A DNA stretch of 64,000 nt from an uncultured Ignavibacteriota bacterium (lineage in GTDB: Bacteria; Bacteroidota; Ignavibacteria; UBA10030; UBA8401): assembly GCA_903884005.1 (NCBI GenBank), contig CAISDA010000043.1, positions 1 through 64,000 of the forward strand, given 5' to 3'. The position numbers were made by a program, and so were the translations under genes. Position 1 is the first letter of the stretch; each line of letters begins with the position of its first letter. Below, piece after piece: positions 26,903 to 54,714 of the stretch. The notes below the pieces were generated by a model that saw only the letters and a program-made list of their open reading frames with translations, did not search any database and was not told where the DNA came from.

Positions 26903-29299
26903 TTGCAGACCGTTGAAATTCTTGAAAGCATCTCCGGCGGATTTTTTGCGCTGGATAACGAGTATCACTTTACATACTGGAACCACGCCGCCGAAGAGGG
27001 GACCGGTTTCGTTCGCACCGACGTGCTGGGCAAGCATGTCTTCGAAATATTCCCGAACGCCGAGCATGATGAGATCGGCGAATGTTATCGCAAGGCCATG
27101 AGCACGCGCACGTTTCAGTCGCTCATCAGCTGCTATCGCGACACCCGGTATGAACGATGGTACGATATCCGCGTCTATCCGAACGACAAGGGCCTGTCGG
27201 TGTTCTTTCAGGATATCAGCGATCAGAAACAGGAGGAAATGCAGCGGGCCGCGCTTCTGGAAGTGTCGCACGTCATCAACTCCGGCAAACAAATCGACCA
27301 GCTCTGCGCCCACTTCGTGAAGGCGATACAAAAGCGATACGGACTGTCGCTCCATGCTGTGCTCCTGTATCTCTACCGCCCCCAGCAGAAACAGCTGGTG
27401 CTCATGGCTCCGGACGGACTGCCGGCGTCTCTGCAGCAGGCGATCGCGTCGCTGCAAATCGATACATCACCCATGCACGGCGTGGTGGAAACCGCGCGCT
27501 TGGGCTCCTCGATCGTCACATCGGATATCGCCCGCAGCATCCTCTACGCGCATGCCCCGGAACTCGTCGTGACATCGTCCACGACCACGCTCATCGTGCT
27601 CCCGCTGAAAGTCGATACGGAACTTGTCGGCGTTCTCGAGATTCAACTGAACAAAGAACGGATGTTCGCGGAAAAAGAACTGTCATTCCTCTCGTTTCTC
27701 ACCACCGAGGCGGCGGTGGGCATCAGCCGGCGCATCCTGCTCGACGAATTGCGCGTAAAAAATGTCGATCTCGAAATCCAGCGCGCGCAAACCGCGGAGG
27801 CGAACGATACGCTCAAGCGGTTCCTCGCGTTCTTTAGCCACGAACTCCGCTCGCCGCTGAATTCGGTGATCGGATATTCCGAGCTCTTGCGCGATACGGC
27901 CGACCGGCTGACGGCTGCAACCGTGGCCGAGTACGGCAAGACCATTTATTCGAGCGGTTCGCATCTGCTGCACCTCATCAACGACATTCTCGATCTCTCG
28001 AAAATTGAAGCCGGAAAATTCGACCTTCACTTTTCGCCTGTCGGGCTGAGGCCGCTCCTGGAAGGAGTGCGCGAAACGGTCCGGCCGATGCTGGAGGCAA
28101 AAACCATCGCATTCGAGCTCGTCATGAACGACGATATCGAAGAACTGGTCGTCGACGAGGTCCGTCTGCGCCAGATCCTCCTGAACCTCGTCACGAACGC
28201 CGTCAAGTTCAGCTACGAGGGTTCCCGCATCATCACCACCGTGCAGCGCGTACAGAACGACGTGGAATTTACCGTGCAGGATTTCGGATGCGGCATCGGC
28301 AAAGACGAACAGGCGCTCTTATTCAAGCCGTTCCTGCAAACGTTTTCCGGCGTCAACGGGGGCGAAGGCACGGGGCTCGGCCTGGCGATCACAAAAAAAT
28401 TAGTCGAGCTCCACGGCGGGTCCATCTTCGTCGTGAGCGAAGTCCGCGAGGGGAGCACGTTCAGCGTGCGCATGCCGATGATGGTGCAGGCGGACAACGA
28501 TGCGGAGAAGATCATGCGTGCGATCGCCTCGGCGCACGGATCGAAAGCCCCGCGCCGCGTGCTTATCGTGGAAGACAAGCCGCATGCATACACGCTGCTG
28601 CGGACCTACCTCCAGGATGCGGGATACGAAACGGAGATCGCCGTCAACGGCGTGGAAGCGCTCGAAAAGGCCAAGCTCTGGAAGCCCGATGTGATCACGC
28701 TGGACATTCTACTGCCGGTGAAGGATGGCTGGCAGGTGCTGCGCGAATTGAAGGACCATCCGCTGTGCCGCGAGATCCCCGTCATCATCATTACGATGGT
28801 GGACGAACGCAATGTCGGATTCAGTCTCGGCGCCGCAGAGTATTTTGTGAAGCCGGTGCAGAAGGATTCGCTGCTCCATGCCCTGAAGCGCGTGGCCGAA
28901 CGGCATCCCCATGTCGCCAACGCGGCAAAAATTTTAGTCATCGATGACGACAAGGCCGCGACGGACCTGGTGCAGGTGATCCTTGAAGCTGAAGGGTGCA
29001 CGGTGCTCAAGGCCAACAACGGACGCGACGGCCTTGCGATCGCAGAGCGCGAACGCCCGGATCTGATCCTTCTGGACCTGGTGATGCCCGAATTTTCCGG
29101 ATTCAACGTCGCATACCAATTGAAGCATAACCTTGCAACCTACACGATCCCCGTGATGATCATGACATCGATGGAGATCGATGATGAGACCCGCCACCAG
29201 CTCGACGGCTTTGTCGTCGGGTTGATGAAAAAATCGGGATTCACAAAGCGCGACCTCCTCAACGAGATCGCGGCCATCAACAATCAACAACTGAGGTAG
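26903..29299 (+). CDS. Hybrid sensor histidine kinase (PAS-GAF-HisKA-HATPase-REC-REC)
   Basis: 798 residues without membrane segments, so a cytoplasmic sensor. Order: PAS (1-115), GAF (about 119-285), HisKA with the phosphorylated histidine in FFSHELRSPLN (His313), HATPase (about 410-530; N box LVTNAVKFS, G box GTGLGLAITKK), receiver 1 (about 552-665, Asp in ITLDILLP) and receiver 2 (about 676-798, Asp in LILLDLVMP). A TTG at 26903 is taken as start: AAGGA lies eight bases upstream and the PAS domain begins at once. The open frame continues upstream to 26603 but overlaps the small gene. The stop TAG is formed by the following repeat. Confidence 0.92.
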   Translation: MQTVEILESISGGFFALDNEYHFTYWNHAAEEGTGFVRTDVLGKHVFEIFPNAEHDEIGECYRKAMSTRTFQSLISCYRDTRYERWYDIRVYPNDKGLSVFFQDISDQKQEEMQRAALLEVSHVINSGKQIDQLCAHFVKAIQKRYGLSLHAVLLYLYRPQQKQLVLMAPDGLPASLQQAIASLQIDTSPMHGVVETARLGSSIVTSDIARSILYAHAPELVVTSSTTTLIVLPLKVDTELVGVLEIQLNKERMFAEKELSFLSFLTTEAAVGISRRILLDELRVKNVDLEIQRAQTAEANDTLKRFLAFFSHELRSPLNSVIGYSELLRDTADRLTAATVAEYGKTIYSSGSHLLHLINDILDLSKIEAGKFDLHFSPVGLRPLLEGVRETVRPMLEAKTIAFELVMNDDIEELVVDEVRLRQILLNLVTNAVKFSYEGSRIITTVQRVQNDVEFTVQDFGCGIGKDEQALLFKPFLQTFSGVNGGEGTGLGLAITKKLVELHGGSIFVVSEVREGSTFSVRMPMMVQADNDAEKIMRAIASAHGSKAPRRVLIVEDKPHAYTLLRTYLQDAGYETEIAVNGVEALEKAKLWKPDVITLDILLPVKDGWQVLRELKDHPLCREIPVIIITMVDERNVGFSLGAAEYFVKPVQKDSLLHALKRVAERHPHVANAAKILVIDDDKAATDLVQVILEAEGCTVLKANNGRDGLAIAERERPDLILLDLVMPEFSGFNVAYQLKHNLATYTIPVMIMTSMEIDDETRHQLDGFVVGLMKKSGFTKRDLLNEIAAINNQQLR

Positions 29300-29353
29300 G
29301 GCGAGCTGTTAGCTCGCCCGCTCGAGCGAAGCGGGGTAAATTTTTGTGAGTTA
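29299..29353. repeat. Double-hairpin repeat, right part
   Basis: Hairpin at 29299-29319 (arms GGGCGAGCT and AGCTCGCCC, loop GTT), then a diverged second part ending GTGAGTTAC. The kinase stop codon is the TAG at its left edge. Confidence 0.75.
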
Positions 29354-29398
29354 CGAGGGAACGAGGTCTGTTCGCCAACGGCAAACGTTTTTCTCGGA

Positions 29399-29476
29399 GT
29401 AACTCGCTGCCCTTGCATCGGTGCGCATGTAGGGCGAGCTGTTAGCTCGCCCGCACCGCGTGCGCGGTGCAAGTTA
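29399..29476. repeat. Double-hairpin repeat, complete copy
   Basis: 78 bases bounded by GTAACTCGC and GCAAGTTAC. Hairpin 1 is at 29432-29452 (GGGCGAGCT, loop GTT, AGCTCGCCC) and is followed by hairpin 2 (GCACCGC with GCGGTGC). It lies 100 bases after another copy. Confidence 0.82.
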
Positions 29477-29496
29477 CTTACGAGCAGGGGGCCCAT

Positions 29497-29628
29497 ATGC
29501 ATGAATACATTCTCATCGCCGTTGCCGTCATCGTTTTTGCGATACTCATCAAGATCGGACTCAAGGTCCTGAAGTGGGGGATCATCGCATTGATCCTCTA
29601 CGCCCTCTGGCGCATCGTCATGCACTGA
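29497..29628 (+). CDS. Small single-pass or hairpin membrane protein (43 residues)
   Basis: The frame starts at the ATG in GCCCATATGCATG and encodes 43 residues. There are two hydrophobic stretches, YILIAVAVIVFAILI (4-18) and WGIIALILYALW (27-38), separated by KIGLKVLK. A weak ribosome site (AGGGGG, five bases upstream) precedes it. The composition (leucine, isoleucine and valine, with flanking basic residues) is that of a real small membrane protein rather than chance. Nothing is known about its role; it stands alone between repeats. Confidence 0.5.
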   Translation: MHEYILIAVAVIVFAILIKIGLKVLKWGIIALILYALWRIVMH

Positions 29629-29633
29629 GAGTG

Positions 29634-29703
29634 TTATTCGTCGCGCAGCGACTCCGCCGGATCGATGCATGCGGCCATACGCCCGCTCGTCTTGAGTGTC
29701 TCG
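29634..29703 (-). pseudogene. Possible remnant of a MacB/FtsX-type ABC permease C-terminus
   Basis: On the minus strand the frame ending at TAA (29634-29636) reads [12 protein letters not shown] followed by IDPAESLRDE and stop. The last ten residues are almost exactly the usual C-terminus of MacB/FtsX-like permeases. Upstream of it the frame shows no membrane segment. It may be the stump left after deletion of such a gene. The match is short, so this is tentative. Confidence 0.3.
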
Positions 29704-29779
29704 TTCTGCGAGGAGGCGAGCGATCACGCAGCAATCGCCCATACTGTCGATGGCGTGTGAACGCTGGTGTGCCAAATTC

Positions 29780-29822
29780 TTGATTTCCGAAAAATTTTAT
29801 GGTACATTAATTGTATACAATT
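29780..29822 (+). promoter_or_regulatory. Promoter with palindromic operator candidate before the glycosyltransferase gene
   Basis: TTGATT at 29780-29785 and TACATT at 29803-29808 are 17 bases apart. Directly after, at 29809-29822, is the perfect 14-bp palindrome AATTGTATACAATT, which would cover the transcription start. Its core TTGTATACAA fits the t.GT..AC.a pattern of FadR-type GntR operators. No GntR gene is in the window. The other 280 bases between the small membrane gene and 29912 hold the permease remnant and nothing else noticed. Confidence 0.55.
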
Positions 29823-29911
29823 TTTTTTCGAAGCACCGATCGCATACGCCGCCGCTCACCAGGGGCAGCATTCGGGCGGCGTTCAATCCCTCGCCACTAC
29901 AGGAGCTTTCC

Positions 29912-31381
29912 ATGAGTACCATTACGGTCGTTCTGCCGTTCAGCGCCGAACCATATTTCACACAGACACTGCTCGCGTTAGGCGCAGAGGCCGCCGTGAA
30001 AAAAATACTTGTTGCGCACGACGGTTCGTTTACCGCCAAATTCCCGAAGACAGAGGAAATGTTCGTTGAGTCGATGACTTCGGGCAAGACACTGAACGCG
30101 ATCGTCGCGAAATGTGCCACGACGCATCTCCTGTTCATCACGCAGGCGCAGGAAATGGTTTTCGGACAGCGCGCGATCGCCCGCTTCATCGATTGCGCCG
30201 TGCAAACCAATGCCGGAATGGTCTATTCAGACTACTATGACATCAAGAACGGCACCCGGTCCGAGCACCCGGTCAACGATTATCAATTCGGCAGCATACG
30301 CGATAATTTTGAGTTCGGCGCGGTGATGATGTTCTCTCGCGCGGCGGTGAAAAAAGCCCTTGCGAAATTCGGCAAGATCGAAAAAGTGGAACGGGCCGGA
30401 CTCTACGATCTCCGTCTGAAAGTATCCACCGTAGCGCCGCTGTTCCACATACAGGAATATCTCTACACGAAAGTGGAATCTGATCTGCGCAAGAGCGGCG
30501 ACAAAATGTTCGACTATGTCGATCCGCGCAACCAGCTCGTTCAGAAGGAACTGGAAATCGTCGCAACGAAGCATCTGAAACACATCGGCGCATATTTGAA
30601 GCCGAAATTTGCGAAGGCTCCCGGGGCCGCAGGAGAATTTCCCGTTGAAGCAAGCGTCATCATTCCCGTGCGCAACCGCGATAAGACGGTCGGCGACGCA
30701 GTGAAGAGCGTGCTGACGCAGAACGCGGACTTCACCTATAACGTGATCGTCGTAGACAACCACTCGACTGACGGCACCACCGCAATCCTCGCAGAGCTCG
30801 CGGCGCAGGACCCGCGCGTGAAGCGCATCATGCCGGAACGGACCGACCTCGCTATCGGCGGCTGCTGGAACGAGGCAGTGATGAGTCCGGAATGCGGTCG
30901 CTATGCCGTGCAGCTCGACTCGGACGATCTTTATATCGACAACGATACGCTGCAGAAAGTCGTCGATGCGTTCCGCGCCGGCGGGTATGCGATGGTCATC
31001 GGTTCATACAAACTCGTGAATGCGAACCTCGAGGAAATTCCGCCGGGACTCATCGACCACAAAGAATGGACGCCGGACAACGGACGCAATAACGCGCTTC
31101 GCATTAACGGGCTTGGGGCTCCTCGCGCGTTCAACACGGCGCTCTTGCGCGAGATCGGACTCCCGAACGTCAGTTACGGCGAGGATTACGCCGTGGCGCT
31201 CCGCCTCTCTCGCAACTACCAGATCGGCAGGATCTATGAACCGCTCTATCTGTGCCGGCGATGGGAAGGCAATACCGATGCGGCGCTGCCCATCGACAAG
31301 ATCAACCGCAACGATTGGTATAAAGACAAGATCAGGACCATCGAGCTCATGGCACGCCAAAAAACGGCAAAAAAATTGTAA
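29912..31381 (+). CDS. Family 2 glycosyltransferase with two GT-A-like domains
   Basis: 489 residues. The second half (about 247-480) is a typical GT2 domain: [32 protein letters not shown], and the metal-binding DSDD (336-339). The first half (about 1-200) looks like a second, degenerate GT-A fold: [19 protein letters not shown] with a possible acidic motif YSDYYD. There is no signal peptide or membrane helix, so it should act in the cytoplasm. The ATG at 29912 follows AGGAG by seven bases. It heads the locus with the DUF4922 and SpoIID genes; donor and acceptor are unknown. Confidence 0.85.
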
Positions 31382-31559
31382 TGTGCCAGGAGCACTCGTA
31401 ACGCAGCGTATCCCGGAGGGGTGTGTGAACGGCTGTTCATCCATCCCTCTTTTTCTTGTATGCCGTATCGCCGCGTTGGTGCGCCCCATGCATCTGCTGC
31501 CCGGACCGGCGTGCTGTTGACGAGACGGAACCTATGACGCATTCATCGAAAGGCTTATC

Positions 31560-32054
31560 GTGACGTATCGCGAGTGGACCGAGAACGATTTTGAACCTGT
31601 GCGGCATGTGCTGCTGGACACGTGGCTCGATGCCTACGGCTCTTTCATTCCCGAAGAAGACATCAGCGGCTATTTCGCCTCTACCTATTCGATCGACAAA
31701 CTTTCCGCCCTCTATCGATCGCCGACATCGAAAGGCTATATCGCAGAGGACAATACTGCCGTCGTCGGCTTCGAGCGGCTGCAGTACGATGAAAAGCAGA
31801 ATCGGCTGTATGTATCGTCCGTCTATGTGCTCCCGGGGAACCAGGGGAAAGGGATCGGCCGTCATCTGCTGCTGCTCGCAGAGGAAGAAGCGCGGCGTCT
31901 TCGTCTGGACCGCATCTGGCTGGGCGTGATGACGCAGAATATTCCTTCGGTGGAATGGTATAAAAAAATCGGCTTCACATTCATTCAGGAAGAGCCCTTC
32001 ACCATGGGCGCCACCGTTGTTCAACACCTGATCGGATATAAATTGGTTGTATAA
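31560..32054 (+). CDS. GNAT-family N-acetyltransferase
   Basis: 164 residues with the acetyl-CoA binding motif A in VYVLPGNQGKGIGRHLLLLA (Q/RxxGxG/A pattern: NQGKGIG) and the closing EWYKKIGFTFIQEEPF. The start is a GTG at 31560 with GAAAGG six bases upstream. It follows the glycosyltransferase after 178 bases and precedes the DUF4922 gene by 23, so it is probably part of this operon and might acetylate an amino sugar or a peptide. Substrate prediction from GNAT sequence is unreliable. Confidence 0.87.
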   Translation: MTYREWTENDFEPVRHVLLDTWLDAYGSFIPEEDISGYFASTYSIDKLSALYRSPTSKGYIAEDNTAVVGFERLQYDEKQNRLYVSSVYVLPGNQGKGIGRHLLLLAEEEARRLRLDRIWLGVMTQNIPSVEWYKKIGFTFIQEEPFTMGATVVQHLIGYKLVV

Positions 32055-32077
32055 TACATTGAGAAAGTATACCGTGC

Positions 32078-33052
32078 ATGCTTGAGAACATCATCTTTGA
32101 ACGCTACGACGCGGCAACATCGCTCACGGAACAGTCGCTCCGCCTGCTGCACCAGCAGCAGCAGACCTGGCCGCAGCTTATCGATGGCTATGCCGCCTTT
32201 GCGGATGTCCGGCAGCGGAATATCGCATGTGACGGCTTTTCGATCATCCTCCAATTCAACCCGAAACGCATCGTCTCATCGGGAGCGAAGATCGATGCGG
32301 CGACGATCAAGGAACGGAAATGTTTCCTGTCCATCGAGAATCTGCCTCCGGAACAGCGCGGCATTCTCTATCGGAATCATTTTCTTGTGCTCTGCAATCC
32401 GGCTCCGATCGTGAATCAGCACTTTACACTGTCGCATATCGAGCATGTTCCTCAGGCGATCGAGGCGTACATCGGAACCATGCTCCTGCTCGCGCAGGAT
32501 TTTTCACCGTCCTTCACCGTGTTCTATAACGGACCGCGGTGCGGCGCTTCCGCGCCCGACCATATGCATTTCCAGGCTGCCCCCGCGCGTGTCATTCCGG
32601 TCGAAGTCGATGCAGTAAGCGCAGAGCGTCGCGTGCCGGAGCGGACGGTCGAGGGCGTTGCGATCCTCACGCTGAAAAATTACGGACGCCAGGCGATACT
32701 GCTCGAGTGCGACGATGCCGCCCGGCTCGAGTCCGTGTTCCATCGGTTAATGTCGTCCATGAAGGCTGAGGAACGAACGACAGAGGAACCCAAAGTGAAC
32801 GTCCTCTGCACATACACGGACGGGCTGTGGCGCATCATTCTGTTTCCGCGGGCGAAGCATCGTCCCGATGCCTATTTTAAGGAAGGCGATGAACAGATCC
32901 TGCTGAGTCCCGCCTCGATCGATATCGGGGGCCTGGCCGTGACGCCGCTGGAGCGCGATTTCATCCGTGTGGACGCGCCAACGATCGAACAAATTTTTAC
33001 GGAAGTGTCCCTGACGCGTGCTGAAGTGGAGCGCATCATCGCCGCCGTGTAG
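32078..33052 (+). CDS. DUF4922 protein, HIT-superfamily nucleotidyltransferase/phosphorylase-like
   Basis: 324 residues. The key motif is PDHMHFQ (His162-x-His164-x-Gln166), the HxHxQ pattern that carries the nucleophilic histidine in GalT, Ap4A phosphorylase and GDP-hexose phosphorylase branches of the HIT superfamily. Preceding it is FYNGPRCGASAPDH, typical of DUF4922. The protein is cytoplasmic. By fold it should form or break a nucleotidyl-phosphate bond, perhaps on a sugar 1-phosphate; its true reaction is unknown. The stop TAG is supplied by a dispersed repeat. Confidence 0.8.
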   Translation: MLENIIFERYDAATSLTEQSLRLLHQQQQTWPQLIDGYAAFADVRQRNIACDGFSIILQFNPKRIVSSGAKIDAATIKERKCFLSIENLPPEQRGILYRNHFLVLCNPAPIVNQHFTLSHIEHVPQAIEAYIGTMLLLAQDFSPSFTVFYNGPRCGASAPDHMHFQAAPARVIPVEVDAVSAERRVPERTVEGVAILTLKNYGRQAILLECDDAARLESVFHRLMSSMKAEERTTEEPKVNVLCTYTDGLWRIILFPRAKHRPDAYFKEGDEQILLSPASIDIGGLAVTPLERDFIRVDAPTIEQIFTEVSLTRAEVERIIAAV

Positions 33053-33120
33053 GGCGAAATGTCATATCACCCGCACCGCGTGCGCGGTGCCGGTTTTTTT
33101 CATCGCACCCCGAACGGGTG
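33050..33120. repeat. Double-hairpin repeat, diverged copy
   Basis: Begins TAGGGCGAAATG at the DUF4922 stop. The first hairpin is decayed (GGGCGAAAT against ATATCACCC). The second is intact (GCACCGC with GCGGTGC), and a further GCACCCCGAACGGGTGC hairpin follows. It fills the gap before the SpoIID gene. Confidence 0.7.
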
Positions 33121-33141
33121 CAGGTCATTAGGAGCTTTTTC

Positions 33142-34476
33142 ATGATATCCCAGGAACCGATCATCAAAGTCGGCATCTTCGAACAGTATACGGAAGTACG
33201 CGGCGACCTCATCGGCAAATTCAACATCGATCATAACATCATCGTCAACGGCGCATTCCACGCCGTTGTGGAGAACGGCGATGTCGTGATGTACGGCGGG
33301 CAGGGCATTGAACTGCTGCGCGCGCAGGAGATCCGCTGCACGCCGGTCGACGACGGCACGTTCGTGCTCCACGACGTCGTCATCGGCATCAATTTCCATT
33401 GGGAACGGAAGGAAGACCAGACTTTCGAAGGCGGGCTGACACTGCGTGCGTGCGACAACGGAACGCTCACGGCCGTTAACGAGATCGCCGTCGAAAAATA
33501 TTTGGCCAGCGTCATATCATCCGAAATGAGCGCGACAGCGCCGATCGAGCTGCTCAAGGCCCACGCGGTAACATCGCGCTCCTGGCTGGTGGCGATGCTT
33601 GAACAGAAAAAAAAGATCTCGAATCTCGGCATCCCGTCGCAGCGCACGATCCGGACGGAGTCTGAACTCACACGGTGGTACGACCGTGAAGACCATGATG
33701 CGTATGATGTGTGCGCCGACGACCACTGCCAGCGCTATCAGGGCGTGTCCAAAATTATTTCCACTGCGGCGAAAGAGGCGGTCGACGCGACGCGCGGCAT
33801 GTTCCTAGTCTACGACAATGAAATATGCGACGCGCGTTTCTACAAGGCGTGCGGCGGCATGACGGAACTCTTCGAGAACGCGTGGGCCGATACGCCGGTG
33901 CCGTACTTGACGAACGTGTCGGATGCGCCTCAGGAGTTCGCCCCCGTGGCAACCGAAGACGATGCCCGCGAGTGGATCCTGGCGAATCCCGATGCGTATT
34001 GCAACACCACTGACGGCGCGATCCTGCGCGCAGTGCTCCCGTCGTTCGATCAGGAAACGACGGATTTCTTCCGCTGGAAGGTCGTCTACGCGCGCGAAGA
34101 ACTCGAAGCATTGATACTGAAAAAATCAGGCATCGATTTCGGCACGTTGCTCTCTCTTACGCCGCTGGAGCGGGGCCCGTCCGGCAGGATCTATAAATTG
34201 CGGATTGAGGGCTCGAAGCGGACACTTGTTGTGGGCAAAGAATTGGAGATCCGCCGCTGGTTCTCGAAGAGCCATATGTACAGTTCCGCGTTCGTCGTCG
34301 ATACCGATCGCGACGCCGAGGGCGTGCCGCGTTCGTTTACGTTCACCGGCGCAGGCTGGGGACACGGCGTCGGCCTCTGCCAGATCGGCGCGGCGGTGAT
34401 GGCGGTGAAAGGATTGCATGCGGAGGAGATCGTGAAGCATTATTTCCGCCATGCGCAGCTTGCTGTTCTTTATTAA
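33142..34476 (+). CDS. SpoIID/LytB-domain protein without signal peptide
   Basis: 444 residues with a SpoIID domain: the catalytic glutamate in VISSEMSATAPIELLKAHAV (Glu128), the AVTSRSW segment, the conserved cysteines in CADDHCQRYQG and FYKACGGMTE, and the closing GAGWGHGVGLCQIGA. Characterised SpoIID proteins are lytic transglycosylases that cut glycan strands lacking stem peptides, outside the membrane. Here the ATG at 33142 (AGGAG seven bases upstream) gives MISQEPIIKVGIFEQY with no signal or membrane helix, so it should stay in the cytoplasm. It lies between a HIT-like enzyme and the AmpG-like permease. Confidence 0.88.
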   Translation: MISQEPIIKVGIFEQYTEVRGDLIGKFNIDHNIIVNGAFHAVVENGDVVMYGGQGIELLRAQEIRCTPVDDGTFVLHDVVIGINFHWERKEDQTFEGGLTLRACDNGTLTAVNEIAVEKYLASVISSEMSATAPIELLKAHAVTSRSWLVAMLEQKKKISNLGIPSQRTIRTESELTRWYDREDHDAYDVCADDHCQRYQGVSKIISTAAKEAVDATRGMFLVYDNEICDARFYKACGGMTELFENAWADTPVPYLTNVSDAPQEFAPVATEDDAREWILANPDAYCNTTDGAILRAVLPSFDQETTDFFRWKVVYAREELEALILKKSGIDFGTLLSLTPLERGPSGRIYKLRIEGSKRTLVVGKELEIRRWFSKSHMYSSAFVVDTDRDAEGVPRSFTFTGAGWGHGVGLCQIGAAVMAVKGLHAEEIVKHYFRHAQLAVLY

Positions 34477-34515
34477 CTATTCACTCATCAAACCACCACA
34501 AAGGTAACCCGTACG

Positions 34516-35856
34516 ATGGTACAGTCAACGAACAAAGCCTCTCGAAATCCGTGGGCATGGGTGCCGACACTCTATTTTGCCGAAGGCATACCCTATGTGA
34601 TCGCCATGTCGGTGTCCGTGATCATGTATAAAAAAATGGGAATCTCGAACGCCGATATCGCGCTCTATACCAGCTGGCTGTACCTGCCGTGGGTGATCAA
34701 GCCGCTGTGGAGCCCGGTGGTCGATCTGTTGAAGACCAAACGGTTCTGGATCGTCACCATGCAGCTCATCGTCGGCGCCGCGCTCGCCTGTGTGGCCCTC
34801 ACCATTCCGCTGCCGAATTTTTTCCAGGTCACTATCGCGATCCTCTGGCTCATGGCGTTCAGCGGGGCGACGCACGATATCGCGGCGGACGGCTTCTACA
34901 TGCTCGGCCTCGACGCAGGCACGCAGGCTGAGTTCGTCGGACTGCGCAGCACGTTCTACCGCATCGCCATGCTCTCGGGACAGGGACTGCTGGTGATCGT
35001 TGCGGGATATTTTGAAAAACACAGCGATGCTCTTTTTGCATCCGGGTTTATCCCGGCATATTTTCAAAGTCAGGGCGCCATTCCCTTTGCATGGTCGCTT
35101 ACGTTTTTCATCGTTGCTGCCGTCTTTCTTTCTCTCTTCATCTACCACTTGTTCGTCTTGCCGTATCCGGTCTCTGATACCCCCAAGGTCGGCAGCCAAT
35201 CGGCGAATTTCCTTCCCGAATTTTTCAAGACGTTCGGCTCCTTCTTCAACAAAAAAGGGATTCTCCTGACCCTCGCCTTCATGCTGCTTTACCGGTTCAA
35301 CGAATCACAGCTGGTCAAACTCATCACCCCGTTCCTGCTGGATGCACCCGAAAAAGGGGGACTTGGACTATCAACGCTGCAGGTAGGGATTGCATATGGA
35401 ACATTCGGCGTCGGTGGACTGATGATCGGCGGCATCACGGGCGGCATCGCGATCGCAAAGAAGGGACTTCGGTACTGGCTCTTTCCAATGATGATCATTA
35501 TTCATTTTCCCGATCTCGTCTATATCTTCCTGTCGCAGACACATCCCGATAATTTTCCGCTCGTCTGCGGCCTCGTTGGCATGGAGCAGTTCACCTACGG
35601 CTTCGGCTTCACCGCCTATATGATGTATATGATCCGCGCCTCAGAGGGCGAACATAAGACTGCGCACTACGCCATCTGCACGGGCATCATGGCAATGGGC
35701 ATGATGATCCCCGGCATGTTCGCCGGCAAGCTGCAGGAATGGCTCGGCTATCAGACATTCTTTTTGACCGTGCTCATCTCGCTCATTCCGGCATTGCTCG
35801 TCGTCTCGCAGCTCAAGATCGATCCGGAGTTCGGCAAGAAAAATGTAAAGGCATAA
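34516..35856 (+). CDS. AmpG-like MFS permease (muropeptide importer candidate)
   Basis: 446 residues and about twelve membrane helices. The N-terminal YFAEGIPYVIAMSVSVIMYK and LPWVIKPLWSPVVD are characteristic of AmpG-type transporters, which bring GlcNAc-anhydroMurNAc peptides into the cytoplasm. Other segments include ATHDIAADGFYM. The gene starts 39 bases after the SpoIID stop and is followed by a strong terminator, so it closes that operon. The next operon encodes a sugar kinase and a NagZ-type glycosidase, which supports murein recycling. Confidence 0.85.
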   Translation: MVQSTNKASRNPWAWVPTLYFAEGIPYVIAMSVSVIMYKKMGISNADIALYTSWLYLPWVIKPLWSPVVDLLKTKRFWIVTMQLIVGAALACVALTIPLPNFFQVTIAILWLMAFSGATHDIAADGFYMLGLDAGTQAEFVGLRSTFYRIAMLSGQGLLVIVAGYFEKHSDALFASGFIPAYFQSQGAIPFAWSLTFFIVAAVFLSLFIYHLFVLPYPVSDTPKVGSQSANFLPEFFKTFGSFFNKKGILLTLAFMLLYRFNESQLVKLITPFLLDAPEKGGLGLSTLQVGIAYGTFGVGGLMIGGITGGIAIAKKGLRYWLFPMMIIIHFPDLVYIFLSQTHPDNFPLVCGLVGMEQFTYGFGFTAYMMYMIRASEGEHKTAHYAICTGIMAMGMMIPGMFAGKLQEWLGYQTFFLTVLISLIPALLVVSQLKIDPEFGKKNVKA

Positions 35857-35910
35857 GGTCGTCGCGCCGCCGGCGTCATGCACTGCCGCTGCACACAGAG
35901 GCTACAATGA

Positions 35911-35948
35911 AAGGGAGCATTCGATCGAATCGGATGCTCCCTTTTTTT
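35911..35948 (+). terminator. Rho-independent terminator after the AmpG-like gene
   Basis: AGGGAGCAT pairs with ATGCTCCCT over a 13-base loop, followed by seven T. It ends the operon that begins at 29912. Confidence 0.85.
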
Positions 35949-35981
35949 CCACTTTGCCCTCCGTCCATTGCGCCCGGGTTC

Positions 35982-36010
35982 TTGCTTCTCTTGCGCTATC
36001 TTCGTAATTT
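35982..36010 (+). promoter_or_regulatory. Promoter of the kinase-NagZ operon
   Basis: TTGCTT at 35982-35987 and TAATTT at 36005-36010 with 17-base spacing. Transcription would begin near 36017, after the in-frame ATG at 36014, so translation should start at 36062. Confidence 0.6.
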
Positions 36011-36061
36011 GGTATGCAAAATATTTCTTATTCAATTCCTACCCTTATCTGTAGACATCGA

Positions 36062-37033
36062 ATGAAATCTAACCGTTTTGTTATCGGCATGGACGGCGGG
36101 GGCACAAAAACAGCCGCCATCATTGCCGCGCTTGACGGCACCATTATCGCCGAACATGTCGCCGGGCCGTCAAATTTCCAGACCATCGGCGTTGAAACAG
36201 CCGCGCAGACAATCTTTTCGCTCATCAACGAATGCTGTCGTTCGGCGAACTGTGCGCCTTCCCACATCCAGGCGCTGACGCTCGGCCTCACAGGCGCAGG
36301 CCGCGTTGCCGATCAGAAGCGCATGGCCGACGGCCTAAAAAAATATTCGCGGGCGCAGGGTGTTCTTCTCAAAAAAGTGATCGTCGAAAGCGATGCGCGC
36401 ATTGCGCTCGAGGGCGCATTTAACGGCCGGCCGGGGATCATTTTGATCGCAGGCACCGGCTCTATCGCGTTCGGAAAAGATATCAAAGGCGCGATCCACC
36501 GTGTCGGCGGATGGGGACGCATTCTGGGGGATGAAGGAAGCGGATATTTTATCGGCCGCTGCGGCATCACCGCCGTCACGCGCTTCATCGACGGCCGCGG
36601 CACGAAGACCCTGCTCGCGAAACTTGTGGCCGACACATTCCACCTCGCCGATCAAACGGACATCATCACCGCCGTCTATAAAAATAATTTTGATGTCGCC
36701 TCCGTTGCTCCGCTCGTGCTCGAAGCCGCGGCAAAAAAAGACCGGGTGAGCCTGCTTATCATCGAACAGGCCGCCGCCGAATTGACCGATCATGTCCGCG
36801 CATTGACCGCCGCACTTCTGCCGGTCTCCCGCAAAAAGATCAAAGTCAAGATCCCCGTATCGTTCATCGGCGGACTCATTGCCAACGATACGCTCTTGCG
36901 GCGTATGCTCACGGAGCAGCTCACGGCAACTCTGCCGCATATTCACATTACAGAACCGATGTCACCGCCGGCGTTCGGCGCCGTGGTCATGTCGCTCATG
37001 GCTCTTCCTCATAAAGAATCAACGCACTCATGA
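36062..37033 (+). CDS. BadF/BadG/BcrA-type kinase, probable GlcNAc/MurNAc kinase
   Basis: 323 residues of the ASKHA fold. The phosphate-1 loop is IGMDGGGTKTA (residues 8-18); then LGLTGAGR, and the sugar-kinase signature IAGTGSIAFG with GGWGRILGDEGSGYFIG. The family includes N-acetylglucosamine kinase and the MurK kinase of MurNAc. The NagZ-type gene directly downstream overlaps by four bases and would release the sugars this enzyme phosphorylates. Which amino sugar it prefers cannot be read from sequence. Confidence 0.85.
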   Translation: MKSNRFVIGMDGGGTKTAAIIAALDGTIIAEHVAGPSNFQTIGVETAAQTIFSLINECCRSANCAPSHIQALTLGLTGAGRVADQKRMADGLKKYSRAQGVLLKKVIVESDARIALEGAFNGRPGIILIAGTGSIAFGKDIKGAIHRVGGWGRILGDEGSGYFIGRCGITAVTRFIDGRGTKTLLAKLVADTFHLADQTDIITAVYKNNFDVASVAPLVLEAAAKKDRVSLLIIEQAAAELTDHVRALTAALLPVSRKKIKVKIPVSFIGGLIANDTLLRRMLTEQLTATLPHIHITEPMSPPAFGAVVMSLMALPHKESTHS

Positions 37034-39957
37034 AATTTTCCGTTCTTGTTGCTCCGTCTCGCAGTGCATGCGCGTGTGCCATTGTCTGCTGTCTTTTACT
37101 GTGGGGATGCGCATCCGAACGATCGGCAGAGCGTCCGGCTCAGCTGCCCCCGATAGTTCGCGCCCCGGTCGATTCACTGCCTCCTGCGCCGTTGCCGGCG
37201 CGCACGACGTGGGTCGAGACGACGCTCCGCCGCATGACGCTTGAAGAAAAAGCAGCCCAAATGGTCTGTGTGTTCACATTCTCGCATTATTACGCGAGCG
37301 ACAACGACCGGTGGAAGGAACTGGAACGCCTCGTGACGAAACGCAAGATCGGGGGATTCGTTTTTTCGGAAGGACCGCTCTATGCATATCCGGTCTACGC
37401 CAACAAGCTGCAGAAACTCTCGGATGTGCCGCTGTTGATCTCCACCGATTTCGAACGCGGCCCCGGCATGCGTGTGGATGAAGCCACAATGCTGCCTCGT
37501 GCGATGGCTATCGGTGCGACGCGCGATACGCGGCTTGCCTACGAGGCGGGCCGTGTCACTGCCGCCGAAGGCCGCGCCCTTGGCGTCCAGCAAAACTATG
37601 CGCCTGTCGCCGACGTGAACGTGAACCCGAAAAATCCCGTCATTAACACGCGCTCATTCGGCGGGGATCCCCGGCTTGTGGCCGATATGACATCGGCGTT
37701 CGTCCGCGGCACTCAGGACGGCGGGATGATCGCTACGGTCAAACATTTTCCCGGCCACGGCAATACAGACACCGATTCGCACGTCGGCACGCCGAGTGTG
37801 GATGCTTCGCGCGAACAGTGGGAAGCGAACGATCTGATGCCGTTCAAAGCCGCCCTTCGCGCCGGCGCACTGTCCGTGATGACCGGCCATATTATTTCAT
37901 CGTCGTACGACAACACCAATACACCGGCGTCGGTCTCGTCTGCATTGACGACCGACCTGCTTCGCACATCGCTCGGCTTCAGCGGTCTGGTGGTGACCGA
38001 TGCCATGGACATGCGCGGCATCTCACGCTCCTATTCGAACGATGAAGCGGCGGTGCTTGCGGTCAAAGCCGGCAATGACGTCGTGCTCATGCCTCTCGAT
38101 GCCGACGGAGCCATCGATGCCATCGTGCGCGCGGTGAAGCGCGGAGACATCACGGAATACCGCATCGATGCATCGGTGCGCCGCATCCTCCAGGCGAAAT
38201 CGTGGTGCGGACTGGACACGAACCGGTTCGTCGATATCACCAGGGTGAGTGATGCCGTCGCAACGGCTCCGCATCAAGCGCTGGCACGAGAGATCGCGCT
38301 GAAGTCCGTGACCGTTCTCGGCAATACGCACCGCGTGCTTCCGCTGTCTATGGCCCGCACAAAAAAAATCGTCGACGTGGCATTCACGGAAAAAGAGGGG
38401 CAGTCGGAGGGCCGGGTGTTTCATCGCGCGGTCCGCCGCTATCACCGCAATTCGGAATTGTTCAAGATCGATCCCCGCTCCAACGCCATGGAATATGCCT
38501 CGGTGCTCGAGAGGGCGAAGACCGCCGACATCATCCTTCTTCATTTTTATTGCGAGGCCCGTTCGCGCGCTGCCTACATCCCTGTCCAATTCGCCGAATG
38601 CGTGAAGAAACTCCTCGCGCTCAAAAAAACAACGGTCGCTGTCTCGTTCGGCAATCCGTACATCGTGCTCGATTTCCCGTCCGTTGAAAATTATGTGTGC
38701 GCCTACAGTTCGGCCGATGCCTCGATCGACGCCGCCGCAGAGGTGCTCTTCGGCGAAGAACCGGCCGAGGGAAAATTGCCCGTGACGATTCCCGGACTGT
38801 ACGCCTTCGGCGAAGGATCCGTGTACGGCATGCACTCCGGACTTCGCACCGGAGCTCCGGAAGATGCCGGGTTCGATCCTGCAGCACTCGCTGCGGCCGA
38901 CTCGGTTGTCCTGGCGGGTATTGCGCACAAAGCATATCCCGGCGCAGTGCTGCTGGTGGCAAAGGACGGGATCATCGTGAAGAACCAGGCATACGGACAT
39001 TACACGTATGATGCGGATGCGCCCCCGATGTCTCCCGAAACGATCTTCGACATGGCTTCGGTGAGCAAAGTGATCTCCACGACCACGGCCGTCATGCGCC
39101 TGTACGACGAACACAAGATCGACCTCGATGCCGCCGTCGCTTCATACCTGCCCGCCTTCGGCCGGATGGGAAAAGAGAAGATCACGGTGCGCAATCTGCT
39201 GCTCCATAACAGCGGACTGCCGGGATGGAGAAAATTCTATACGTTCTGCACGACTCCCGCATGCGTCATGGATTCGCTCTTTGCAACACCGCTCGACTAT
39301 CCGACGGGGACGCAGATGATCTACAGCGATCTCGGATTCATCACATTGGGAAAAGTCGTCGAAAAGATCACACACACAACGCTCGATCAGTACATGGATT
39401 CCGTATTTTTCAAGCCGCTCGGGATGACCATGACGCTGTATAATCCGCCTGCGCAATTGCGCGCTCGTATCGCTCCCACAGAGATCGATTCGTTCTGGCA
39501 GAAAACGTTCAAGCCCGTTCAGGGACGCGTCCACGATGAGAACGCCGCCACGCTCGGGGGCGTCTCTGGACATGCGGGACTCTTTTCCACCGCTGCCGAT
39601 CTTGCCGTCCTGCTCCAGATGGAACTCAACGGCGGCACGTACGGCGGCAAGCGATACATCGAGGAAGCCACGATCACACTGTTCACCAAACGCCAGAGCG
39701 ACCTCAGTTCGCGCTGTCTGGGATGGGATGCGAAAAATCTGACCGGTTCATGGGCGGGGAAACTCATTTCGAACCGCGCGTTCCTCCACACAGGATTCAC
39801 CGGCACTTCGGTCGTGGCCGATCCGGATAAAAAATTGATCGTCGTGTTGCTCACAAACCGCGTCTATCCGACACGCGAGAACAGCGGGCTTGCAAAGGTG
39901 CGCCCGGTTCTCCACGACGCCATCGTGAAAGCGATCGAGAACGAGAAGGAAGAGTAA
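37030..39957 (+). CDS. Lipoprotein: GH3 beta-N-acetylhexosaminidase (NagZ-like) fused to a serine beta-lactamase-like domain
   Basis: 975 residues. A lipoprotein signal with lipobox LLWGC (cysteine at residue 33) places it in the periplasm on a membrane. Residues about 55-400 are GH3: KHFPGHGNTDTDSH (Lys238-His239 with the Asp/His dyad) and the nucleophile in VVTDAMDMRG (Asp324). A GH3 C-terminal segment follows. From about 620 a class C beta-lactamase/PBP domain begins, with SVSK (Ser677, Lys680), YSD (Tyr765) and HTGFTGTS near the end. The glycosidase would remove GlcNAc from muropeptides; the second domain may be an amidase, esterase or peptidase. The architecture is known in Bacteroidota-type genomes. 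Confidence 0.92.
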   Translation: MKFSVLVAPSRSACACAIVCCLLLWGCASERSAERPAQLPPIVRAPVDSLPPAPLPARTTWVETTLRRMTLEEKAAQMVCVFTFSHYYASDNDRWKELERLVTKRKIGGFVFSEGPLYAYPVYANKLQKLSDVPLLISTDFERGPGMRVDEATMLPRAMAIGATRDTRLAYEAGRVTAAEGRALGVQQNYAPVADVNVNPKNPVINTRSFGGDPRLVADMTSAFVRGTQDGGMIATVKHFPGHGNTDTDSHVGTPSVDASREQWEANDLMPFKAALRAGALSVMTGHIISSSYDNTNTPASVSSALTTDLLRTSLGFSGLVVTDAMDMRGISRSYSNDEAAVLAVKAGNDVVLMPLDADGAIDAIVRAVKRGDITEYRIDASVRRILQAKSWCGLDTNRFVDITRVSDAVATAPHQALAREIALKSVTVLGNTHRVLPLSMARTKKIVDVAFTEKEGQSEGRVFHRAVRRYHRNSELFKIDPRSNAMEYASVLERAKTADIILLHFYCEARSRAAYIPVQFAECVKKLLALKKTTVAVSFGNPYIVLDFPSVENYVCAYSSADASIDAAAEVLFGEEPAEGKLPVTIPGLYAFGEGSVYGMHSGLRTGAPEDAGFDPAALAAADSVVLAGIAHKAYPGAVLLVAKDGIIVKNQAYGHYTYDADAPPMSPETIFDMASVSKVISTTTAVMRLYDEHKIDLDAAVASYLPAFGRMGKEKITVRNLLLHNSGLPGWRKFYTFCTTPACVMDSLFATPLDYPTGTQMIYSDLGFITLGKVVEKITHTTLDQYMDSVFFKPLGMTMTLYNPPAQLRARIAPTEIDSFWQKTFKPVQGRVHDENAATLGGVSGHAGLFSTAADLAVLLQMELNGGTYGGKRYIEEATITLFTKRQSDLSSRCLGWDAKNLTGSWAGKLISNRAFLHTGFTGTSVVADPDKKLIVVLLTNRVYPTRENSGLAKVRPVLHDAIVKAIENEKEE

Positions 39958-39965
39958 TACTGACT

Positions 39966-40157
39966 ACTCACCGTTCTCTCTAGTTCATATCATTCTGAAA
40001 AATTCATCTTGACCAAGGTCAAGAATCTTCTGCATATGACATAGCTACTCTGTCATTCTGAGCGCAAGCGAAGAATCTTGCATCGTGTGAGTAGTCGGCG
40101 AGATTCTTCAATCGCTCGAGCTCCTTCAGAATAACAAAAACTGAAAATGCGGTGAGT
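39966..40157. repeat. MITE-like inverted-repeat element, copy 3
   Basis: About 192 bases bounded by ACTCACCG and CGGTGAGT, a perfect 8-bp terminal inverted repeat. The inner arms are GTCATTCTGAGCGCAAGCGA and, facing it, CGCTCGAGCTCCTTCAGAAT. It ends 38 bases before the pruA start codon. Confidence 0.8.
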
Positions 40158-40195
40158 AGATACAAGAAATTTACATAATCATAAAGGATGATCGC

Positions 40196-41752
40196 ATGGC
40201 ACCAACCCCGTATAAAAACGAACCGCTCACCGATTTCACGACACCGGCAAACCGGAAAGCAATGCAGAAAGCGCTCGCCGTCGTTGCGAAAGAACTCGGC
40301 AAAGAATTTCCGCTTGTCATCGGCGCAGAAGAGATCACCACAACAGACAAGCTGTATTCGTACAATCCCTCGCATCCGTCCGCCATCATCGGCATCTTTT
40401 CGAAGGCTACGCCCGAGCTGGCAGTGCGCGCTATCGAGACGGCGGCGAAAAAATTCGAAGAATGGAAATTCGTCGCGCCCGCGAAACGCGCCGAGTATCT
40501 GTTCAAGGCGGCGAAGCTCATGCGCAAACGCAAGCATGAATTCAGCGCCGCGCTCACATACGAGGTTGGCAAGTCGTGGGCCGAAGCCGATGCCGACACA
40601 GCCGAGGCGATCGACTTTCTCGAGTATTACGGACGCGAAATGCTGCGCTACGCGCAGAAACAGCCGATCGTGAAGGTCGCCGGCGAAAAGAATGAACTTG
40701 TCTACATTCCTCTCGGCGTCGGCGTGGTCGTGCCGCCGTGGAACTTTGCACTGGCCATTCTTGCCGGTATGACGGCCGCAGCCGTTGTTGCGGGGAACAC
40801 TGTCGTACTCAAGCCGTCGTCCGATTCGCCGTTCCTCGGCGTTAAATTTTTCAACCTCATGCGCGAAGCCGGACTGCCTGCGGGCGTCATTAACTTCGTG
40901 CCTGGCTCAGGCGCCGCAGTGGGCGATGTGCTCGTTTCAAATCCCCTCACGCGCTTCGTGTCGTTTACGGGATCGAAGGAAGTCGGCATCCATATCAATG
41001 AACTTGCGGCAAAGGTGCAGCCGGGACAAAAATGGCTGAAGCGTGTCGTCGCCGAAATGGGCGGTAAGGACGGTATCGTCATCGACGATCAATGTGATCT
41101 CGACGGCGCCGTGTCCGCGACCGTCGCCTCTGCGTTCGGATTCCAGGGCCAAAAATGTTCGGCCGCATCGCGCGCGATCGTGGTGGAAAAAGTGTACGAT
41201 GCCTTTGTGGCGAAGGTCGCCGAAAAGACCAAGGCGCTTGCCGTAGGCGATCCCGCGGATCCCGCCAATTATATGGGACCCGTTGTGAACAAGGGATCGA
41301 TGGAAAAGATCCTGCAGTATATCGAGACCGGCGTGAAGGAAGGCGGCCGATGTGTTGCCGGCGGCACGCGCGCCGAAGGCGACGGATTCTTCATCGCTCC
41401 TACGGTGATCGCCGATGTGAAACCAACAGACACGATCGCGCTGGAAGAAATTTTCGGTCCCGTGCTCGCCATCATCAAGGTGAAAAATTTCGACGAGGGG
41501 CTGGACGTGGCCAACAATACCGAGTTCGGCCTGACCGGCGGCGTGTGGACGAACAATGCGAAGAAAGCCGAGAAGGCGAAGCGGACGTTCCACGTGGGCA
41601 ATTTTTACATCAACCGAAAGATCACCGGCGCCTTCGTGGGCGTTCATCCGTTCGGCGGCTTCAACATGTCCGGCACGGATTCGAAGGCCGGCGGCAGGGA
41701 TTATTTGCTGCTGTTCATGCAGGCGAAACTCATATCCGAAAAAATTAAATAA
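40196..41752 (+). CDS. pruA: L-glutamate gamma-semialdehyde (1-pyrroline-5-carboxylate) dehydrogenase
   Basis: Oxidises glutamate semialdehyde to glutamate in proline breakdown. An aldehyde dehydrogenase of 518 residues: the opening YKNEPLTDF and the PSHPSAIIG segment are typical of the RocA/PruA group. It has the Rossmann part [18 protein letters not shown], the general-base glutamate in [10 protein letters not shown] and the catalytic cysteine in [13 protein letters not shown]. There is no fused proline dehydrogenase domain and no putA-like gene nearby. A ribosome site (AAAGGA) precedes the ATG. Confidence 0.94.
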
Positions 41753-54028: not shown

Positions 54029-54714
54029 GCATGGAGAACCGGGCAGTCCAAAGAATCGTCTTCAGGCTCCTTGCCGCGATCGTGCGAGGTGTCTGCCGCA
54101 CGCTCCGCGTGAAGCGCGTGCATGCGCTTGCTGTGGACGCACTCCGCAGCGAAAAGAAAAATTTTGTCGTCGCATTCTGGCACGGTTCCATGGCGCTCGG
54201 GTGGCATGCGCATGCGCCGGCGCAGACAGAGACGATGTCGGCACTTGTGAGCCTGAGCAAGGACGGTGCGATCCTCGCCGCCGTCCTCGAACGGTGGGGC
54301 TTCACGCTCATACGCGGCTCGAGCCACATCGGAGGCAAAGAGGCGCTGCAGTCGATGGTCGATGCGGCCTCGCGCGGCAGTTCGCTATGCGTAACGCCCG
54401 ACGGGCCGACGGGACCGCGCCACCGGATGAAACCCGGCGCGCTCCTAACGGCGCAGCGGGCCGGCATTCCACTGGTAATCGTCGGCATCGCGGCGAAGAA
54501 CAAGAAAGTGTTCACACGGAGCTGGGATAAATTCGAGATCCCGCTGCCGTTTTCACGCGTGTGCCTCTGGTACGAGGGGCCGTTCGTGATCCCCGCCGAT
54601 GCGGACAGGGAAACGGTGAACGCGATGCTCGAAACAGTGCAGCAACGACTGGATGATGCGCATCTGAACGCGCATCATGCGTTGGGCATAGAAGTCATCG
54701 AGAGATCTTTGTAG
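54025..54714 (+). CDS. DUF374 / lysophospholipid acyltransferase-family protein
   Basis: 229 residues. The WHGSMALGWHAHA opening and PDGPTGPRHRMKPGAL are the DUF374 signatures, a branch of the LPLAT acyltransferases in which the early motif is FWHG rather than HxxxxD. Members are encoded in lipid A gene clusters and are thought to work on lipid A or related lipids. It overlaps lpxB by four bases (ATGA) and ends in a TAG supplied by a repeat. Confidence 0.82.
   Translation: MSMENRAVQRIVFRLLAAIVRGVCRTLRVKRVHALAVDALRSEKKNFVVAFWHGSMALGWHAHAPAQTETMSALVSLSKDGAILAAVLERWGFTLIRGSSHIGGKEALQSMVDAASRGSSLCVTPDGPTGPRHRMKPGALLTAQRAGIPLVIVGIAAKNKKVFTRSWDKFEIPLPFSRVCLWYEGPFVIPADADRETVNAMLETVQQRLDDAHLNAHHALGIEVIERSL

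Follow-up and report, generated by a model that had tools for sequence, protein, structure and literature searches.

The window analysed here, a stretch of 64,000 nucleotides of contig CAISDA010000043.1 from an uncultured Ignavibacteriota bacterium (GenBank assembly GCA_903884005.1), carries at 29780-39957 seven genes grouped around an AmpG-like muropeptide permease. Three of them, encoding a family 2 glycosyltransferase (GT2), a DUF4922 protein and a SpoIID-type lytic transglycosylase homologue, are called the core hereafter. The core set very likely belongs to AmpG-dependent peptidoglycan recycling. We tentatively propose, with a confidence a little short of even, that its members form one functional unit, an alternative cytosolic branch to the NagZ/AnmK steps in which SpoIID would act at the anhydro end. 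The data show which genes are present, how they are fused, how they co-occur, which folds they encode, that export signals are lacking and that AnmK is unevenly present; each reaction, with its direction, is inferred. All seven genes were confirmed on the + strand, as a preceding sequence-only reading had it, and their arrangement goes beyond chance because the same order recurs in related genomes. The features are as follows.

29912-31381, + strand: GT2, two-domain family 2 glycosyltransferase, soluble, core gene 1 (489 amino acids; PF00535)
31560-32054, + strand: GNAT acetyltransferase, accessory (164 amino acids; PF00583, 67.8 bits)
32078-33052, + strand: DUF4922, enzyme of the fold of diadenosine tetraphosphate (Ap4A) phosphorylase and GalT, core gene 2 (324 amino acids; PF16269)
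33069-33100, + strand: terminator-like hairpin and seven-T run between DUF4922 and SpoIID (fold z -3.4 for 33069-33094)
33142-34476, + strand: SpoIID-type lytic transglycosylase homologue without export signal, core gene 3 (444 amino acids; PF08486, TIGR02669)
34516-35856, + strand: AmpG-like muropeptide permease of the major facilitator superfamily (446 amino acids; MFS_1, BT1)
35909-35945, + strand: intrinsic terminator (-25.7 kcal/mol, z -8.1, then a T run)
36062-37033, + strand: BadF-type putative kinase for N-acetylmuramic acid (MurNAc) or N-acetylglucosamine (GlcNAc), MurK/NagK-like (323 amino acids; PF01869, 142.2 bits)
37030-39957, + strand: exported NagZ-like GH3 beta-N-acetylglucosaminidase-like protein with a PBP4B/class C beta-lactamase-fold domain (975 amino acids)

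The link with peptidoglycan recycling, claimed beforehand from gene content, held in a survey of 392 phylum genomes for which at least 90% completeness was requested. DUF4922 was found in 62/392 and the SpoIID type (E <=1e-60) in 58/392, all 58 lying inside the DUF4922 set (Fisher p 4e-65, kinship ignored). An AmpG-like gene (E <=1e-40) was present in 62/62 DUF4922 genomes, compared with 125/392 overall (p 3e-37, kinship again ignored). The total is 62 and not 68 with six weak half-profile DUF4922 matches counted as negative (G340, G065, G193, G337, G374 and G169; E 4e-6 to 9e-4; G numbers denote genomes), and the fetched loci do not include additional or fragmentary matches of G255, G085 and G333. 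DUF4922 and SpoIID were more than 10 kb apart or on separate contigs in 39 of the 58 genomes.

The closest relatives repeat the order GT2-GNAT-DUF4922-SpoIID-AmpG-BadF-GH3. Twenty-four DUF4922 loci of relatives, several of them on short contigs, hold GT2 (18), GNAT (19), SpoIID (22), AmpG (21), BadF (16) and GH3 (10). Beyond these, we inspected 53 further DUF4922 loci of the phylum, up to about 10 kb on either side, and the named loci, that is, the best 80 of 585 relatives from one profile scan of genome contigs; neighbour labels rest on chosen score thresholds. GT2-DUF4922 was the tightest distant pair, with 43/53 phylum loci and 75/80 named loci. In 46 loci among the best 80 of 585, one or more recycling genes lay near the core: AmpG in 36, NamZ in 17, MurK-like in 14, MurQ in 9 and MurU-like with AmgK-like genes in 9. 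Further neighbours in the same 80 were NagX-like genes (8), a sodium:solute symporter, which we take to be MurT from its position (7), and a large oxidoreductase with flavin adenine dinucleotide (FAD) and iron-sulfur (Fe-S) domains (5). Loci with MurU/AmgK-like genes were all deltaproteobacterial (Syntrophaceae 3, Smithellaceae 1, Syntrophobacterales 1, named as deltaproteobacterium only 4), one of them, L132, with the order SpoIID-MurU-AmgK-GT2-DUF4922 (L numbers denote loci, f numbers families). In Bacteroidales loci the core lies near NamZ, MurK and MurQ. The labels were checked on the query proteins: NamZ by Pfam, MurQ by NCBIfam above cut-off, and the MurK-like kinase against the MurNAc kinase structures 8oqw and 8ow9 (E ~1e-101); the MurU-like, AmgK-like and NagX-like queries gave clear scores under the curated cut-offs. 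A GlcD/GlpC-like FAD/Fe-S oxidoreductase follows the core in L071 (10646-16154) and L161 (13892-16807), possibly for D-lactate, released by MurQ, and in L071 an ornithine/diaminopimelate/arginine-decarboxylase-like gene also follows.

Fusions occur in eight loci, seven joining GT2 to DUF4922 and one joining GT2, DUF4922 and SpoIID. The GT2-DUF4922 fusions span two phyla: two come from family f50 genomes, the other five from loci of Syntrophaceae, Smithellaceae or Smithella. Pfam confirms the fusion in L115. The triple fusion (L038, family f50) is a single chain of 1266 amino acids. Genome G260 (L082 and L194) has a GT2-DUF4922 fusion and, elsewhere, a second, unfused GT2 in the series GT2-SpoIID-AmpG-NamZ-NagX-MurK-MurQ.

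The window SpoIID protein is a clear member of the SpoIID/LytB domain family (TIGR02669, 170.3 bits for a cut-off of 83.3; PF08486, 87.3 for 23) and matches the solved 4rwr with E 2.7e-24. E128 aligns to the SEM of 4rwr, and H185, C191, H195 and C196 lie where the alignment places the H-C-H-C stretch of 5i1t; all five residues are invariant in 14 sequences, relatives in the aligned set being 43-68% identical to the window protein. We take E128 to be the catalytic glutamate and the H-C-H-C residues to be zinc ligands. The domain and these positions are thus shared with SpoIID/LytB lytic transglycosylases, whereas the window type has neither export signal nor anchor and in L038 forms one chain with cytosolic enzymes. 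In 78 full-length relatives no strongly hydrophobic N-terminus was seen: over the first 45 residues, the mean hydropathy of 11-residue segments reaches 2.08 at most, compared with 2.47-3.41 in five exported-looking distant SpoIID proteins and 3.06 in the window GH3 lipoprotein; export was judged here by simple hydropathy and not by a signal-peptide predictor. The SpoIID protein is placed in the cytosol because it is fused behind GT2 and DUF4922 in L038. The prediction that GT2, DUF4922 and SpoIID are cytoplasmic is supported. The distant SpoIID proteins with a hydrophobic N-terminus belong to DUF4922-negative genomes of family f42 (L202, L203, L209, L211 and L216), which encode them on the opposite strand near AmpG. 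In G220 (L186) the SpoIID frame is broken by one in-frame TAG, a sign of decay or a sequencing error.

DUF4922 membership of the second core protein is equally clear (PF16269, 183.2 bits for a cut-off of 23.6). Its structure model (predicted local distance difference test score, pLDDT, 94.6) can be superposed for the greater part on yeast Apa2 (4i5t), an Ap4A phosphorylase (VIA Z 22.6, root-mean-square deviation (rmsd) 3.3, 271 residues aligned); a DUF4931 protein, uridylyltransferases and Arabidopsis ADP-glucose phosphorylase come next with Z 8 to 10. The DUF4922 profile reaches Apa2 by sequence too (E 4e-4) with the H-x-H-x-Q motif aligned, and H162-x-H164-x-Q166 is invariant in 57 DUF4922 sequences. 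Fold and motif place the protein in the HIT/GalT superfamily, on the Apa2 branch; the modelled fold predicts an enzyme of the covalent nucleotidyl-histidine kind. Whole fold and motif are common to DUF4922 and the Ap4A phosphorylase/GalT/ADP-glucose phosphorylase superfamily, while identity is about 16% and the gene context is different. Our literature search on DUF4922 found plant GGP papers only and no paper on the bacterial family. Residue 85 of the window protein (32330-32332) is Ser, where at least 90% of relatives have Cys in a CFLC motif; by analogy with GalT, this motif is a possible metal site.

GT2 matches PF00535 with 76.4 bits over residues 248-389. The best match of its model (pLDDT 91.4), spanning both domains, is the chondroitin polymerase K4CP (Foldseek E 6e-22; VIA Z 25.8, 405 residues aligned), although the arrangement of the domains differs (rmsd 21) and the N-terminal domain (residues 1-240) is barely covered in the VIA list. 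The second domain also resembles TarS and TarP. K4CP, TarS and TarP are chain-building or decorating enzymes solved with UDP-GlcNAc or UDP-N-acetylgalactosamine (UDP-GalNAc). D336-S-D338-D339 and G423-E-D425, which we take to be the D-x-D and E-D motifs of the GT-A fold, are invariant in 48 sequences and support membership of that fold; the aligned relatives are 48-69% identical to the window protein. The GNAT gene adjoins the core in the window's family and order, and three loci from deltaproteobacteria (L096, L097 and L102; 212-224 bits) encode a GNAT of this type in one chain with DUF4922.

The kinase AnmK is the textbook entry of anhydroMurNAc. Searched with Pfam PF03702 in 54 of the 58 SpoIID-positive genomes (G343, G380, G398 and G416 were left out), it was absent from 32/54 and present in 22/54, a partial match in G247 (E 1e-10) being counted as present. 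Among 56 named DUF4922-negative genomes it was present in 55 and absent from one (G026). Seventeen more AnmK-negative genomes came without names; with all of them taken as DUF4922-negative the difference gives p = 1e-4 (Fisher, kinship ignored), and these 17 may well be the same as 18 AnmK-negative same-class members found among the SpoIID-positive genomes. A DUF4922 tree of 58 genomes, quickly built and with many weak forks, requires at least 13 switches between presence and absence of AnmK. The frequent lack of AnmK in SpoIID-positive genomes agrees with the earlier claim of a non-textbook route for the anhydro-sugar. Replacement of AnmK by the core set as a general rule was rejected, 22/54 SpoIID-positive genomes holding both.

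We accordingly considered the following scheme, in which every step is conditional. AmpG would import GlcNAc-anhydroMurNAc with or without peptide. SpoIID might then act on the 1,6-anhydro end in the reverse of its known role and open the ring, with an acceptor or water taking up the sugar, and ordinary MurNAc units would arise without AnmK. GT2 and DUF4922 would handle the GlcNAc part via a nucleotide sugar: DUF4922 would interconvert nucleotide sugar and sugar-1-phosphate, and GT2 would make, or in the backward direction break, the GlcNAc-MurNAc bond. Free MurNAc could pass to BadF/MurK kinase and MurQ in Bacteroidota, or to AmgK and MurU in deltaproteobacterial hosts. A role of SpoIID at the anhydro end is the most economical reading of the AnmK pattern, and MurNAc as the product suits the neighbouring genes, BadF/MurK with MurQ and AmgK with MurU. 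A stronger version, which we regard as doubtful, would have SpoIID use the strained 1,6-anhydro bond as an energy-rich donor without ATP and transfer the disaccharide to an acceptor, with GT2-DUF4922 recovering GlcNAc as nucleotide sugar or sugar-1-phosphate.

The three enzymes go with AmpG across one phylum and appear beyond it; AnmK is often missing from genomes with this SpoIID type; and DUF4922, a domain of unknown function, becomes a testable candidate enzyme. If the stronger version is true, gut Bacteroidales, Ignavibacteria and Syntrophaceae would possess an energy-saving recycling independent of AnmK and NagZ. If the proposed branch exists, gut and anoxic-sediment bacteria recycle their walls by non-textbook chemistry, with enzymes different from those of E. 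coli governing their cytosolic muropeptide pools.

The skeleton of the operon is already in print for Tannerella (T.) forsythia, while the core gene set is uncharacterised and strongly coupled. According to the available part of PMC5388701, the T. forsythia ampG operon (Tanf_08345-Tanf_08385) comprises xanthan lyase, gtf, gtf, lytB, ampG and ybbC, then murT, murK and murQ, is co-transcribed and activated by GppX, and is termed 'glycosylation related' with reference to earlier work. The portion of PMC7670621 at hand reports that AmpG of this species imports GlcNAc-anhMurNAc and GlcNAc-MurNAc, a function shown there, and that GlcNAc-anhMurNAc supports growth although an AnmK orthologue is not predicted; how the fragments are processed after import is called an open question there, for which the core supplies three candidate enzymes. 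This AmpG works at 27% identity to E. coli AmpG and occupies the same gene position as the window AmpG-like protein (same partial sources, PMC5388701 and PMC7670621). MurK and a neighbouring kinase, K1058, flank the cluster (PMC10465942, in part), and the accessible part of PMC6721243 holds nothing on genomic AnmK. The operon order resembles that of Dysgonomonas hofstadii (L165), GT2-DUF4922-SpoIID-AmpG-NamZ-NagX-kinase-MurQ, the kinase of which gives E 3.5e-101 with 8ow9, a solved MurNAc kinase of the T. forsythia type, and its first part also that of Bacteroides clarus (L161). Because of this match in order, the second gtf is probably DUF4922 and lytB probably SpoIID. Our literature search found no study of gtf-gtf-lytB (Tanf_08350/08355/08360), named only in PMC5388701, and searches on SpoIID together with AmpG and recycling, or with Bacteroides thetaiotaomicron, turned up only a Chlamydia, an Acinetobacter and a bile-acid paper. 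The window differs from the T. forsythia operon in that another BadF kinase and the GH3-beta-lactamase protein take the place of murTKQ, and in its additional GNAT gene and internal terminator.

With the canonical E. coli-type AmpG-NagZ-AmpD-AnmK-MurQ recycling, the window's genome shares an AmpG-like importer, a sugar kinase, MurQ and AnmK. Unlike in that system, its NagZ-like GH3 protein is exported, three extra cytosolic enzymes are tied to AmpG, and AnmK is missing in many genomes that bear the set. The Pseudomonas-type AmgK-MurU route is represented by the AmgK-like and MurU-like genes near the core in nine deltaproteobacterial loci among the best 80 of 585, whereas no AmgK match was obtained in the window's genome and 40 relatives, and the L132 homologue stays well under the curated cut-offs. 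The search with NF045759 (0/41 genomes) is limited by a model that scored under cut-off in the controls Caulobacter and Deinobacterium, so a divergent kinase could escape, and MurU was not searched; one divergent AmgK query in the window's clade, run without positive control, likewise gave no match.

Several observations weigh against the proposed cytosolic branch. The window's own genome holds AnmK (G000:C79:93841-94971) and MurQ (G000:C17:82119-83027), and because both are present and AmgK is undetected the usual breakdown route is open to it. The earlier proposal of a non-standard recycling overall therefore stands in part, upheld by the pathway link and the cytoplasmic enzymes and weakened by a genome that keeps AnmK and MurQ; its phrase 'simply broken down to UDP-MurNAc' mixes the catabolic (AnmK/MurQ) with the anabolic (AmgK/MurU) route. 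Genomes positive for DUF4922 and negative for SpoIID (f49, f58) all have AnmK (4/4), and their loci hold a NagZ-like GH3 without export signal adjoining DUF4922 or a few genes from it; DUF4922 and its GT2 must therefore have a task of their own, outside those of NagZ and AnmK. The loss of AnmK may go with other lineage features, the association not being fully corrected for kinship. Recognised recycling genes were near the core in 13/53 phylum loci and not in the other 40. Regular occurrence of DUF4922 and SpoIID without recycling genes had been named beforehand as refuting a single pathway; the neighbourhoods lean that way, while an AmpG-like gene elsewhere in all those genomes speaks for the link. 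The AmpG and SpoIID profiles were built from core-positive genomes, so their figures are maybe somewhat flattered; GT2 was counted beside DUF4922 only, with no genome-wide search; and gtf/gtf/lytB of T. forsythia were matched by name and order, not sequence. In addition, we know of no report of ring-opening activity by a SpoIID protein. Finally, a GT4 glycosyltransferase gene lies directly 3' of SpoIID in 17 stretches of the window's class (L039, L047, L054, L073, L074, L075, L078, L177-L180, L186-L188, L190, L191 and L195, several ends being shared or overlapping), an arrangement that fits glycan synthesis at least as well.

Glycan synthesis is the first alternative. Recycled amino sugars would be assembled by GT2, with or without GT4, and DUF4922 into an oligosaccharide, either cytosolic or lipid-linked, while SpoIID would trim or release MurNAc-containing chains, a view close to the sequence-only proposal that fragments are 'activated and transferred to an acceptor'. 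The resemblance of GT2 to K4CP, TarS and TarP, the 17 stretches with GT4 after SpoIID and the term 'glycosylation related' given to the T. forsythia operon (PMC5388701, in part) point this way. However, no flippase, polymerase or ligase was present among the ten recurring neighbour families scanned, AmpG accompanies DUF4922 in 62/62 genomes, and AnmK loss is not predicted, so that we consider this explanation unlikely.

A split disaccharide phosphorylase appears less probable still. GT2 in reverse would convert GlcNAc-MurNAc and a nucleoside diphosphate (NDP) to NDP-GlcNAc and MurNAc, and DUF4922 would phosphorolyse NDP-GlcNAc to GlcNAc-1-phosphate and NDP; the pair would replace cytosolic NagZ and save a phosphate, SpoIID having a separate role. 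DUF4922 is indeed closest to the phosphorylase Apa2 and then, at lower score, to Arabidopsis ADP-glucose phosphorylase, GT2-DUF4922 fusions occur in two phyla, and Syntrophaceae are energy-poor. The GH3 proteins also bear on it: among single-domain GH3 from core-positive genomes the N-terminus is hydrophobic in 9/10, the exception being L218 (G111), compared with 1/7 in the AmpG stretches of 20 DUF4922-negative genomes, where the other 6/7 lack it. Against this, loci of the f49/f58 type and L063 of the SpoIID-positive G333 have a GH3 protein without export signal in the vicinity of DUF4922, that of L218, likewise from a SpoIID-positive genome, looks cytosolic too, and reversal of GT2 is uphill unless strongly pulled. 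The core set may or may not replace cytosolic NagZ, as judged from the NagZ profile matches listed.

That this is an ordinary canonical recycling locus, with AmpG, BadF kinase and NagZ recycling and the other three enzymes as unrelated neighbours, seems improbable: AnmK and MurQ in the window's genome, and a core away from recycling genes in many f7 and f14 genomes, favour it, yet AmpG is found with DUF4922 in 62/62 genomes, SpoIID with DUF4922 in 58/58, even unlinked, and an independent linkage to AmgK/MurU-like genes is seen in another phylum. In families f7 and f14, GT2-DUF4922 and SpoIID are also often apart from each other. Least credible is a SpoIID that leaves the cytoplasm non-classically and works in the periplasm as a normal lytic transglycosylase. 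The conserved glutamate and zinc-site residues, known from SpoIID structures, favour it, but 0/78 relatives have a strongly hydrophobic N-terminus (maximum 2.08, compared with 2.47 to 3.41 in the five f42 proteins) and the protein is fused behind GT2 and DUF4922 in L038.

The permease is named AmpG-like because its TIGR00901 score (165.5 of 350 bits) is under the curated cut-off; this is nevertheless its best NCBIfam model (E 1.5e-48). The BadF protein matches PF01869, scores 124.7 of 370 bits with NF046058 (NagK) and has as nearest solved relative 8zo3, an 'N-acetylmuramic acid/N-acetylglucosamine kinase' (E 9.5e-46). The last gene combines GH3 (PF00933, 283 bits; E 4.8e-75 with the GH3 beta-N-acetylglucosaminidase 6k5j) and a beta-lactamase-fold domain (PF00144, 219.7 bits). 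It falls outside NagZ proper, with 159.7 of 207 bits for NF003740 and an export signal with a lipobox-like cysteine (LLWGC).

As to transcription, two operons separated by a terminator and promoter at 35911-36010 had been predicted. The strong terminator at 35909-35945, which closes the AmpG unit, confirms the first element (z -8.1). The promoter found no support: a scan of 29000-41000 for sigma70-like sites, which left other promoter types outside, gave 2 sites where 6.3 were expected, neither of them in 35911-36010. The first predicted operon may be divided, and the locus may comprise three transcription units, because a terminator-like hairpin sits inside this presumed operon, between DUF4922 and SpoIID. 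The BadF and GH3-beta-lactamase frames overlap by 4 bases. The GT2 start (ATG at 29912) coincides with the starts of relatives in the alignment, the frame being open from 29696.

The hairpin between DUF4922 and SpoIID repeats a palindrome that lies upstream of GT2 as well, at 29454-29469. This palindrome, CACCGCGTGCGCGGTG, resembles repetitive extragenic palindromic (REP) sequences and has two copies, at 29454-29469 and 33074-33089 (chance expectation 0.01). Another REP-like palindrome, GGGCGAGCTGTTAGCTCGCCC, has five copies with at most 1 mismatch at 12791-12811, 29299-29319, 29432-29452, 54714-54734 and 57092-57112 (chance expectation 0.00).

Many AmpG-like proteins are about 600-650 amino acids long (L067, L070, L126, L162, L165, L167 and many genomes). 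Two separate profile matches, ~2-168 and 164-426, cover each of these long frames, which suggests about 200 inserted residues between the halves.

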